A DNA stretch of 32,239 nt, from assembly GCA_012518025.1 (NCBI GenBank), contig JAAYTP010000016.1, positions 1 through 32,239 on the forward strand. Reading direction: 5' to 3'. Of this stretch, positions 27,568 through 32,101 are shown one piece after another (positions within the stretch are counted from its first letter, which is position 1; each line of letters begins with the position of its first letter). The translations under genes and the position numbers were made by a program. The notes below the pieces were generated by a model. It was not told where the DNA came from. It saw nothing but the letters and a program-made list of their open reading frames with translations, and did no database searches. The DNA is from Clostridiaceae bacterium (GTDB lineage Bacteria > Bacillota > Clostridia > DSM-8532).

Positions 27568-27594
27568 TAATAAGAAGCGTCGGAGGTGTTACTA

Positions 27595-28518
27595 ATGAGA
27601 AAGCTGGATATGGATCAAAAGCAGAGCGTATTGATTATTGATGATAACCAGCAGGATGTTAATTCCCTGAAGAAATTACTGAGAAAAGAATATAGGATAA
27701 GATCAGCGAACACTGTGGAGAAGGCTTTCAAGGCAATTGGAACTCGGAATCCCCCCGACCTGATATTGCTCAATTCCCTTATGGCTGGCATGGATGGCAG
27801 TGAGCTTTGTAAAAAGCTAAGATCCACTCCTAAAACCTGGAACATCCCAGTTATCTTCATTACATCAGAGTTCAGCGAGGATGAGGAATCCCGGCTTTTT
27901 AAGATGGGTGCCGCTGATTATCTGCTTAAGCCATATAATCCACTCACCGTTGCTGCCAGGGTACGAACCCATGCTGAAATCAAAAAATACAGGGAGTGCC
28001 TGGAGGTTTCCTATTATCGGGATGGTCTTACCGCCCTGCCCAACAACCGACGTTTTGAGGAATACTATGATTCTGTTTGGAGTTTTGCAGCGCGTGAGTC
28101 CCTGCCTCTATCCTTAATCAAAGTAAGTATTGCTGATTTTGACTGGTATATTGACAATTACGGTCAACAGGCGATGGATGATTGTCTAATGGCAATTGCA
28201 AATAATCTATCCCATGCAGCCAGGCGGAAAACAGATATGCTTGCCCGGACCGGCCGTGAAGAGTTCACCTGTGTGTTGCCAAATACAAGGATCGACGGAG
28301 CCATTGTCCTTGCGGAAGCATTTCGTGCGAGTGTATCTTCTCTGGGCATTTTGGGTTCCTCCAATGATACAGATGTCTCTATCGGTATTAACCAGGGAGT
28401 TGCAACTACTATTCCCACCAACGATATGCTTTCCAAAAAACTGCTTGAGGCAGCCGAAGAGGCTCTTAAAAAATCTATATCTGAAGGGAGCAACCAAATC
28501 AACTGTAAAAGTATTTGA
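27595..28518 (+). CDS. Response regulator with GGDEF domain, both signature sites altered
   Basis: Receiver domain (about 10-125) followed by a GGDEF domain (about 140-305). The receiver keeps the acidic pair (IIDDN, Asp16-Asp17), Thr90 and Lys112 (LLKPY), but the phospho-acceptor position in PDLILLNSLM is Asn60 instead of Asp. The GGDEF half keeps DGLTALPNNRRF, but the signature reads GREEF (220-224) with Arg for the second Gly, and the usual metal-binding region is IADFDWY. An RxxD (Arg211-Asp214) sits at the position of the inhibitory c-di-GMP site. It is therefore probably not a normal diguanylate cyclase and may bind c-di-GMP or act by protein contact. ATG 27595 has GGAGG 8 nt upstream. 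It is monocistronic as far as can be seen. Confidence 0.88.
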   Translation: MRKLDMDQKQSVLIIDDNQQDVNSLKKLLRKEYRIRSANTVEKAFKAIGTRNPPDLILLNSLMAGMDGSELCKKLRSTPKTWNIPVIFITSEFSEDEESRLFKMGAADYLLKPYNPLTVAARVRTHAEIKKYRECLEVSYYRDGLTALPNNRRFEEYYDSVWSFAARESLPLSLIKVSIADFDWYIDNYGQQAMDDCLMAIANNLSHAARRKTDMLARTGREEFTCVLPNTRIDGAIVLAEAFRASVSSLGILGSSNDTDVSIGINQGVATTIPTNDMLSKKLLEAAEEALKKSISEGSNQINCKSI

Positions 28519-28765
28519 TAAAAATCTCAAAAAATCTGCAGTTGTCTCACCTGTTTGTGATATAATATTCTCAGTCAACTAAATACATTATGTGGTATCC
28601 ATGGTCAAAAATGTGGCCGATCACCCTCATTGAATACTCTGTCCTGTTCAAGTCTTTGCTTCCAGGATAGCGGGTATACCAGAGCGGATATTTGAGTCAG
28701 ACATGGATACGATTTATGTATAATACACTGACATACACTTGCCTTATACAATGAGAGGTGATGAT
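28519..28765. other. Intergenic region before the DUF1538 gene
   Basis: The 247-bp gap holds TATAAT at 28719-28724, about 42 nt before the DUF1538 start, with no good -35. I see no terminator for the preceding gene and no small gene. Confidence 0.35.
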
Positions 28766-30286
28766 TTGACTGAGATAACCGCTAAGCTTAAAGAAGTACT
28801 TACCTCAGTATTACCCATTACATTCATTGTTCTGGTACTCCACTTCACCATAACCCCTTTAGAAACAGATATGCTATTTGCTTTTCTTATAGGTTCTGCT
28901 CTGGTGATTATTGGTCTCACGATCTTCCTATTTGGCATAGACCAGGGTCTGGAACCCATCGGACAGGGTATTGGCAAAACAATAACCCGCTCCAACAGCT
29001 ATGCAGTATTAATTACGGTTAGCTTAATACTGGGTTTCTTTATTTCTTATGCAGAACCAGATCTTCACATCCTTGCAAATCAGGTAGACAATGTAACTTT
29101 CGGCCGGTTTGACAACAAATTGATGGTAATCGCTGTCTCCATCGGACTTGGTGTGATGATGACCCTTGGAATGCTGCGCATAATTAAGAGCGTCCGACTC
29201 AAATATGTGTACGCAGGCGCATATGGCTTGATTTTTATTCTGTCACAATTCTCATCGCCCGATTTTCTAGCCATTGCTTTTGATGCTTCTGGAGCAACAA
29301 CTGGTGCGATAACGGTTCCTTTTATGCTTTCATTGGCCGCTGGTATCTCTGTTTTGAAGAAAAGCAGCAAGATGAGCGAAGCCGATAGCTTTGGTCTTGT
29401 AGGTATTTCTTCTACAGGTGCGATTCTGGGTGTCTTGATTACAGGCCTTTTTCTGAACGTTGATAAACTGGAGGGGGCATTACCTGAAGCAGATATCGCT
29501 ACCTCCAATATACTGGATGCTTACGGCTCCAAACTTCTTACCATAGCATGGGAGTCCTTTTTATCCCTGCTTCCCATTATTATCGTGTATATATTATTCC
29601 AGATATTCTTCTTCAAGCATAAAAAGAACAAGGTCATAGATATCTCAAGGGGTCTTGTCTTTACCCTTGTCGGGCTTATCGTATTTTTGCTGGGGGTAAA
29701 TGGCGGTTTCATGGAAGTGGGTGCCCAGCTGGGAATACAGCTTGCTTCGCTTGACTCTAAGATTCCTGTTTTACTTGTGGCACTACTGCTCGGGCTCACC
29801 ACTGTATTGGCCGAACCTGCTGTTCTTGTATTGACCCATCAGGTGGAAGATGTTACTGGTGGCTCGGTCAACCGTGTTCTTGTGCTCATCTTCCTATCCA
29901 TAGCAGTTGGGGTTTCTATCTTGATGTCCGCATTAAGGATTCTCATACCCGATATTCAGCTGTGGATGTATTTATTACCCGGATTTGGCCTCTCCGTGTT
30001 ACTGGCTTTCTATGTGCCTGATCTATTTGTAGGTATAGCCTTTGATGCAGGCGGTGTCGCCTCTGGACCCATGACGGCAACTTTTTCCCTTGCATTTGTT
30101 CAGGGTATTGCCGCACAAGTTCCAACAGCTGACGTGGTAACAGACGGATTTGGTATGATAGCTATTGTCGCAATGATGCCTGTTGTTGCTATCGAACTGC
30201 TCGGAGCACTCTATCAGGCTAAATCCCGCAAGATATCCCCAGCTGTTGTTATAAAAAAGGGAGCAATTGGAGGTAATCATGGATAA
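28766..30286 (+). CDS. Duplicated DUF1538 multi-pass membrane protein (putative permease)
   Basis: About 506 residues with roughly twelve or more membrane helices and an internal duplication. Each half carries an AEP motif (YAEPDLHILANQVDNVT near 95; LAEPAVLVLTHQVEDVT near 348), then a helix ending in LRI, then IAFDAxG with small residues (IAFDASGATTG near 171, IAFDAGGVASG near 424). This is the DUF1538 arrangement; the family is predicted to be transport proteins but I know of no characterised substrate. TTG 28766 is chosen because AGAGGTG lies 5 nt upstream and the product then starts as LKEVLTSVLPIT, as expected; an upstream TTG at 28739 would add nine residues. Its last 8 nt overlap the PII-like gene, implying co-translation and a functional complex. 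Confidence 0.85.
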   Translation: MTEITAKLKEVLTSVLPITFIVLVLHFTITPLETDMLFAFLIGSALVIIGLTIFLFGIDQGLEPIGQGIGKTITRSNSYAVLITVSLILGFFISYAEPDLHILANQVDNVTFGRFDNKLMVIAVSIGLGVMMTLGMLRIIKSVRLKYVYAGAYGLIFILSQFSSPDFLAIAFDASGATTGAITVPFMLSLAAGISVLKKSSKMSEADSFGLVGISSTGAILGVLITGLFLNVDKLEGALPEADIATSNILDAYGSKLLTIAWESFLSLLPIIIVYILFQIFFFKHKKNKVIDISRGLVFTLVGLIVFLLGVNGGFMEVGAQLGIQLASLDSKIPVLLVALLLGLTTVLAEPAVLVLTHQVEDVTGGSVNRVLVLIFLSIAVGVSILMSALRILIPDIQLWMYLLPGFGLSVLLAFYVPDLFVGIAFDAGGVASGPMTATFSLAFVQGIAAQVPTADVVTDGFGMIAIVAMMPVVAIELLGALYQAKSRKISPAVVIKKGAIGGNHG

Positions 30287-30980
30287 GCACGTTCAAATAT
30301 CAGGGATTGAATATCATATTCTTACCCTCATCCTCAGTGACAGTCAATCCCATAAATGTATCCATGTCGCAAAGGCAAAAGGCGTCTGCGGTGGTATCGT
30401 AACCATAGGCAAAGGCACGGTAAGCAGCGCAATCTTAAACGTATTGGGAATCAAAAGCCAGAAAAGAGAGGTTATTAGCTTCCTTCTTGACAAGGAACAG
30501 GCAAATGAGATCCTTAATCACTTCACCACTGAGCTCCAACTCCATGAGCCAGGTCATGGAGTTGCTTTTACAACGCCTGTGATAATGGCAAATCGCAGCA
30601 CAGAGACTGTTCAGGATACCGGAAATACAGAAAAAGCTTTGGAGGAAATGAGTATGTATAAGAAGCTGACGGTAATTGTCGATCGCGGTATGGCAGAAGA
30701 GGTAATGGATGTTGCACACAATGCAGGCGTCAGGGGCGGTACAATCATGCACGGGCGGGCTGTGGGTGCAGAATACACTGAAAAACTATTCGGTGTGGAA
30801 ATCGAGCCGGAAAAGGAACTGGTTCTGATCCTTATACCCAACGAATTGGTTAATAAAGTAGTAAGCACATTATATGAAGAACTCCAGTTGGATGAGCCCG
30901 GAAAGGGAATCCTGTTTGTAGAACCTGTTATGGAAGTCCGGGGGCTTTTTGAATCAGCCCAACATGATAAGGATTCCTAG
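30279..30980 (+). CDS. Tandem double PII-like (GlnB-fold) regulatory protein
   Basis: A 233-residue cytosolic protein made of two PII-like domains: about 11-103 and 126-220. Matching motifs recur in order: GVCGGIVTIGKGT (35-47) and GVRGGTIMHGRAV (150-162); LHEPGHGVAF (88-97) and LDEPGKGILF (204-213). Classical PII proteins are about 112 residues and trimeric, bind ATP/ADP and 2-oxoglutarate and control ammonium transporters; this fusion lacks the usual uridylylated-tyrosine T-loop sequence, so its ligand is unknown. ATG 30279 has GGAGG 5 nt upstream, located inside the end of the DUF1538 gene, and the genes overlap by 8 nt. It very probably gates or senses for the DUF1538 protein. Confidence 0.88.
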   Translation: MDKHVQISGIEYHILTLILSDSQSHKCIHVAKAKGVCGGIVTIGKGTVSSAILNVLGIKSQKREVISFLLDKEQANEILNHFTTELQLHEPGHGVAFTTPVIMANRSTETVQDTGNTEKALEEMSMYKKLTVIVDRGMAEEVMDVAHNAGVRGGTIMHGRAVGAEYTEKLFGVEIEPEKELVLILIPNELVNKVVSTLYEELQLDEPGKGILFVEPVMEVRGLFESAQHDKDS

Positions 30981-31220: not shown

Positions 31221-31682
31221 ATGCCTGAAGGTACAAAGGTCATTGCCAAGAACAGAAAGGCCAGGCATGAATATTTTGTTGAGGAAGTATTTGAAGCAGG
31301 AATTTCCCTCACCGGAACTGAGGTTAAGTCCCTGCGTCTTGGTCGTGCCAACCTTCAGGACAGTTATGCAGTAATAAATAACGGTGAGGTTTTTATACAC
31401 GGCATGCATATCAGCCCTTATGATCAGGGCAACCGGTTTAACCATGACCCGATGAGAACGCGCAAGCTTTTGCTCAACCGTTACGAGATCAACAAACTGA
31501 TCGGGTTAACACAGAAAAAGGGATTCACACTGATCCCTTTGAGCCTGTATTTTAAAAGGGGGCTCGTAAAGGTGGAACTTGCGGTATGCCGTGGTAAAAA
31601 ATTATACGACAAGCGTCAGGATATCGCCAGGCGGGACGCTGCCAGGGAGATAGAAAGACGGATGAAAGACAGCAGCAGGTAA
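31221..31682 (+). CDS. smpB: SsrA-binding protein SmpB
   Basis: Partner of tmRNA in trans-translation: binds the tRNA-like part of ssrA RNA and brings it to stalled ribosomes. Seen: [19 protein letters not shown], the core motif [38 protein letters not shown] and the C-terminal basic tail ([17 protein letters not shown]) that enters the mRNA channel. Length 153 is normal. AAGGA sits about 12 nt upstream of the ATG, a slightly long spacing. It is followed after 62 nt by ssrA itself, an arrangement that keeps the two partners together. Confidence 0.97.
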
Positions 31683-31709
31683 TTACCACTATATATTCAG
31701 GGTCAGCTG

Positions 31710-31718
31710 TGATATAAT
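31710..31718 (+). promoter_or_regulatory. Extended -10 promoter of ssrA
   Basis: TGATATAAT is a TGn extended -10 inside the smpB-ssrA gap; transcription would begin near 31725, about 20 nt before the mature 5' end, leaving a leader for RNase P to remove. Confidence 0.6.
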
Positions 31719-31744
31719 ATATATTGGCACACTGCCATTTTAAT

Positions 31745-32101
31745 GGGGGTGTTTTGGTTTCGACGGGGCTGTTGAAGCCGGAGAAGCGGGTAGTGGATTC
31801 TCGTTGGCCACTTTAAAAAACGAGAGCATAAAAATAAACGCTAACAGGAATAGCGAATTAGCTTTTGCAGCCTAATGTAGGCTGCCGTCCCACCTGGGAG
31901 GACCACGGCCCGGGATGGGGCGTCGACAGTGGTGAACGTGACACGACAAAGCTTTGAGTCGTGCATGACAAATGAAGCTACTGAAGTTGTAAGCCTGTTC
32001 ATGGGCGTACAGCGGAGGGAATAACAAAACATGAACTGCACCCGGAGATGCTCTTGCGAATGCGGTTTCGGACAGGGGTTCAACTCCCCTCACCTCCACC
32101 A
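31745..32101 (+). ncRNA. ssrA: tmRNA (transfer-messenger RNA)
   Basis: One-piece tmRNA of about 357 nt. The 5' GGGGGTG pairs with 3' CACCTCC before ACCA, and the T-arm GGGGTTCAACTCCCC is near the 3' end. The tag reading frame starts at GCT 31840 after ATAAAC and encodes ANRNSELAFAA with stop TAA 31873-31875; the stop lies in a GCAGCCTA/TAGGCTGC hairpin. The tag adds a degradation signal to proteins from stalled ribosomes. The ends were inferred from the acceptor pairing. Confidence 0.97.

Follow-up and report, generated by a model that had tools for sequence, protein, structure and literature searches.

PII proteins are textbook sensors of nitrogen and carbon status; the transporters best known as their targets carry ammonium and bicarbonate. 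In the window (the whole stretch of 32,239 nucleotides that was analysed), a gene for a DUF1538 membrane protein is overlapped by a gene for a PII-type protein. A literature search, with most subscription journals and preprints outside its scope, found no published link between DUF1538 and PII.

A divergent DUF1538 permease with two homologous halves

The permease gene (28766..30286, + strand, stop included) encodes 506 residues with two homologous halves in one chain. Its start is most likely the TTG at 28766, to judge by the starts of homologues and by an SD-like AGAGG 7 nt upstream, a probable ribosome site read in the sequence (28754..28758, +); the in-frame ATG 28751 or TTG 28739 may serve as alternative starts. 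The open frame ends at TAA 30284-30286. Pfam PF07556 matched two stretches of the protein, with a total of 415.4 bits against a gathering cut-off of 22.6, and the two DUF1538 domains were placed at 28817..29452 (domain A, +) and 29576..30208 (domain B, +). The original prediction had noted repeated AEP and IAFDAxG motifs in the permease, and both repeats were confirmed: AEP occupies residues 96-98 and again 349-351, and the second motif reads IAFDASG (residues 170-176) and IAFDAGG (residues 424-430). In the AlphaFold model (mean pLDDT 82.9) and the alignment, conserved acidic residues were found where two helices of each half are broken (E97 and D173 in domain A, E350 and D427 in domain B), and they are retained in all permease forms. 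Upstream of the permease gene no site stood out as a sigma-70-like promoter, and no Rfam riboswitch match able to control the operon was found in the window and 18 related loci.

The substrate had been described as unknown. This was too strong, as DUF1538 includes UmpA and UmpB of Halomonas zhaodongensis, homologous proteins that co-precipitate as a heterodimer, are both needed and jointly confer Na+(Li+,K+)/H+ antiport on E. coli membranes (PMC5484666). UmpAB was active in E. coli given only umpA and umpB, and the paper has no mention of PII (PMC5484666). The window permease resembles UmpAB in its Pfam family and in having two homologous membrane halves with seven predicted TM segments each (PMC5484666); it differs in being one chain instead of two genes, in its divergence and in its attached PII gene. 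The name UmpAB was rejected for the window permease, because its scores fell far below the NCBIfam equivalog cut-offs (161.6 vs 490 bits for UmpA, NF041627, and 139.5 vs 500 bits for UmpB, NF041628); NCBIfam also gave no reliable separation of UmpA from UmpB in split pairs. Since the window permease is only distantly related to UmpAB, we infer its substrate from the family. No solved homologue was found by sequence, and the fold comparison with solved transporters gave no significant match (best Foldseek E 0.019, best VIA Z 5.7). The known antiporter folds considered were NhaA/CPA, NCX, EAAT and NaS, and entries of EAAT, NCX and NaS reached a Z of about 4, which is the noise level.

A doubled PII-type protein

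The PII gene (30279..30980, +) encodes 233 residues. It starts at ATG 30279, so that eight bases are common to both genes, and its probable ribosome site, GGAGG at 30269..30273 (+), read in the sequence, lies within permease codons, in agreement with the original prediction. The short overlap is conserved: with D denoting a DUF1538 domain, P a PII domain and joined letters one chain, 45 of the 74 DD-PP operons overlap in this way (median -8 nt). The overlap had been regarded as a sign of a stoichiometric complex, but it shows translational coupling only.

Pfam P-II matched only domain B of the protein (30657..30944, +; 37 bits against a cut-off of 25), and domain A (30309..30590, +) gave no Pfam P-II match. 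The AlphaFold model (mean pLDDT 74.5, pTM 0.73) contained two complete PII-type units, each a ferredoxin-like beta-alpha-beta-beta-alpha-beta domain, and the single domains matched PII/GlnK, CPII and SbtB chains in the PDB by Foldseek. The model, these PDB matches and the homology of the halves identify domain A as a PII domain too. Both proteins of the operon are thus internally duplicated, as had been proposed. Domain B retains the subfamily signature (GGTI, RG and EIEPEKE); only some of this signature survives in the divergent domain A, from which EPEKE has been lost.

In the same genus, a canonical GlnK-type PII is fused to an ammonium transporter (L211, 2033-3784, genome G028). Alignment of the window PII with this GlnK part indicated that the T-loop Tyr, the B-loop Lys (GDGKIF) and the C-loop Arg (IRTGE) are absent. 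In classical PII proteins, this Lys and Arg are the residues that hold ATP. The T-loop of the window PII subfamily is also shorter than the classical one. Judging from these differences, uridylylation by the classical route is unlikely and, as the classical ATP-holding Lys and Arg are missing, the effector may not be ATP.

Linkage and co-occurrence of DUF1538 and PII

The original prediction had called for a genome search for DUF1538 next to PII-like genes. Of the 98 regions found by DUF1538 alone, 95 carried PII in the operon (78 of 80 in Bacillota and 17 of 18 in Actinomycetota). Two of the three regions lacking PII were contig ends (L092 and L206). In the third (L138, genome G249), the genome's only PP gene is on another contig. 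G249 jointly retains the pair although the two genes are unlinked. Scanning genomes with the window PII yielded 29 loci, a set biased because it was found via PII, and a doubled DUF1538 gene lay directly upstream of PII in every locus with enough sequence. Five annotated plasmid records also showed DUF1538 followed by a 'P-II family nitrogen regulator'. Two of them, the alphaproteobacterial plasmids that make up the whole coverage of Pseudomonadota, pair two DUF1538 genes with just one PII.

For co-occurrence, a single sample of 398 Bacillota genomes was surveyed, with the PII subfamily called by profile A1 at E up to 1e-12. DUF1538 was found in 139 genomes and the PII subfamily in 139, both in 137 and neither in 257 (60 families); the Fisher p value was ~1e-102, uncorrected for kinship. 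The four discordant genomes comprised two with DUF1538 only and two with PII only. In G335 the permease runs off the contig end, and in G080 the match covers only 62 residues. The complete genome G087 has a decayed DUF1538 gene with six in-frame stops and no PII of the subfamily (L222/L224), which is a case of joint loss or decay. In G398, which has a PII of the subfamily and no DUF1538, the PII gene is immediately followed by a gene for a CitMHS/ArsB/MamN-like ion transporter (L218, 1381-3303), a possible partner swap.

The window genome contains only two PF00543 genes, both of the DUF1538-linked PII type. The second also encodes a doubled PII protein (L034, 5453-6439, contig C12), and the adjoining upstream contig end encodes the C-terminus of another DUF1538 permease. 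The window organism thus seems, from these sequences, to possess two DUF1538-PII operons and no canonical PII.

In two actinobacterial loci (L192 and L194), a single D+P pair lies near genes for Mrp antiporter subunits (MnhG and an MrpD-like Proton_antipo_M protein), and this neighbourhood fits a role in ion/pH balance. A universal-stress-like gene was also seen nearby by eye.

Taken together, the DUF1538-PII pair is near-obligate and spans several phyla. Linkage, co-occurrence, overlapping starts and the natural fusions described below supported the idea that PII and permease are one functional unit.

Architectures and history of the operon

The operons comprised DD+PP (74), D+D+P (29), D+D+PP (15), D+P (12), D+D+P+P (9) and PP+DDP (7), plus single oddities. 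Separately, L051 (3806-4744) holds one DUF1538 domain and one PII domain in a single 312-aa frame. In the trees, the A halves, including that of the window permease, clustered with the genes that come first in split pairs, and the B halves with those that come second, indicating that the permease was duplicated first and fused later; most single D proteins formed a separate clade. The halves of both permease and PII trace to older separate genes.

It had been suggested that doubled permeases occur with doubled PII proteins. As a count this is nearly true, yet it represents approximately one evolutionary event; matched doubling was only partly supported, and a matched invention was not supported in that form. 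The fused A halves form one clade (support 0.986), and in this sample the tree showed one change for permease fusion and about nine changes of state for one-chain PII. Among split permeases the PII partner is P, P+P or a fused PP; within these lineages PP and P+P are interleaved. As a statistical claim, matched doubling as an independent correlation was rejected, because the permease became fused only once on the tree and a single independent pair was found.

Opposite charge bias of the permease halves

Lys and Arg residues were counted per side, with the loops taken from the AlphaFold model of the permease. For the ANTIPARALLEL halves, the N-terminal side and the other side of the fused A halves carried 9.24 and 1.53 Lys+Arg, respectively, with the same direction in 85 of 85; the fused B halves showed the opposite direction in 85 of 85 (2.92 and 9.69). 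The split genes carry the same biases (52 of 53 first genes and 51 of 53 second genes), and the single D proteins are near balance (4.25 to 3.50; 12 proteins, several of them close relatives). This opposite bias predicts that the two halves are antiparallel. The cytoplasmic face of the permease would therefore be built of unlike surfaces from the two halves. Whereas GlnK and SbtB dock on threefold faces, the face of the DUF1538 permease is predicted to be asymmetric.

DUF1538 exists in single, paired and fused states. The coexistence of all three with opposite Lys/Arg bias was known from DUF606 and UPF0016, named in 2014 as the only two families with this pattern (PMC4067407). DUF1538 shows the same pattern; its sequences are unrelated to DUF606 and UPF0016, which have no PII partner (PMC4067407).

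Natural fusions of PII to the permease

Eight relatives (L035-L042) have a permease of approximately 620 residues with an extra C-terminal PII domain, which was recognised at E values of 1e-15 to 1e-24 by a profile built without the fusion proteins. In seven of the eight, a doubled PII gene lies just upstream and ends on or shortly before the permease start. The fused PII end is predicted to be cytoplasmic by the positive-inside rule. Such natural fusions are indirect but strong evidence that PII acts on the permease.

Proposed control of a cation/proton antiporter by PII

By summarizing these results, we propose as the probable explanation that the operon encodes a PII-regulated cation/proton antiporter of the UmpAB type, with its halves fused antiparallel and a dedicated PII regulator, in an arrangement of the AmtB-GlnK or SbtA-SbtB type. 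The product would be a monovalent cation/proton antiporter; in the window lineage, cation/proton antiport is inferred by analogy with UmpAB, and E97, D173, E350 and D427 would be suited to ion/proton binding. On the model of GlnK on AmtB and SbtB on SbtA, the PII regulator would dock on the cytoplasmic face and open or, more likely, close the antiporter according to a small cytoplasmic effector. A brake appears likelier than an obligatory activator because UmpAB worked in E. coli with only umpA and umpB supplied. By analogy with SbtB (PMC10117731), an adenine nucleotide may be the effector.

The known systems resemble this arrangement in part. SbtA, a sodium/bicarbonate symporter, and SbtB are likewise a transporter and a non-canonical PII-type protein encoded in one operon; SbtA, however, belongs to another transporter family, and SbtB has one domain per chain and sits as a trimer on a trimeric transporter (PMC10117731), whereas the window PII has two domains per chain and its permease is predicted to be built of two antiparallel halves. 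In AmtB-GlnK, the PII gene also adjoins its transporter gene or is fused to it, but GlnK has a full T-loop and the classical residues, and AmtB is unrelated to the DUF1538 permease. Among other non-canonical PII proteins, CPII matches the single window PII domains (TM-score up to 0.71 on the target), although the window PII has two domains per chain and a DUF1538 permease as its partner.

Several points count against the proposal: the permease sequence is far from UmpAB, the sole characterised pair, so that the substrate may differ; one PII of the subfamily, in G398, lies beside a CitMHS/ArsB-like transporter; and the classical ATP-holding Lys and Arg are missing from the PII protein. The first two speak for an alternative in which PII controls the permease and the permease carries another ion or a small metabolite instead of exchanging Na+ or K+ for H+, as does the lack of a significant fold match to known antiporters. 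We consider this alternative unlikely, though not negligible, in view of the acidic helix-break residues kept in all forms, the Mrp context in Actinomycetota and cation/H+ exchange as the sole known activity of the family (PMC5484666).

The signal might also run in reverse, if the permease served as a sensor, or as an anchor holding PII at the membrane, and PII then acted on other targets. In known systems, AmtB does sequester GlnK at the membrane. However, a PII domain welded to the permease C-terminus, as in eight genomes, could not leave, the window genome holds no PF00543 genes besides those of the DUF1538-linked type, and nothing pointed to a wider PII network; this direction of control is improbable. 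Least probable is mere co-expression, with PII aiding the folding or assembly of the permease or having an unrelated task. The translational overlap alone would yield co-expression, but it would leave aside the co-occurrence in 60 Bacillota families, the unlinked yet co-retained pair, the joint decay and the fusions.

The PII-regulated antiporter may be one example of a widespread control system, a broader proposition that we regard as evenly balanced, in which a dedicated PII subfamily would gate an antiparallel cation/proton antiporter, with PII duplicated, fused and sometimes welded to the transporter, and the transporter passing from one gene to two genes to one chain. If so, the ion/pH balance of many anaerobes would be coupled to an energy or second-messenger signal, and the docking of two dissimilar PII domains on the asymmetric permease face would constitute a new PII-transporter geometry. 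A cation/proton antiporter would be a third, very common class of PII target, joining ion/pH balance to the same signalling fold. The linkage of DUF1538 to PII hints that ion exchange is switched by cell state in a manner not yet described. DUF1538, a family with one characterised member pair, thus becomes testable through an operon of two genes, for which the hypothesis is clear and nature supplies many variants, built-in fusions among them.

Genes flanking the operon

Directly downstream of the operon, the window contains smpB (identified by eye) followed by the tmRNA gene ssrA (Rfam) at 31221-32101. Upstream, at 27586-28518, a response regulator-like gene with a GGDEF-like output domain was recognised by eye.
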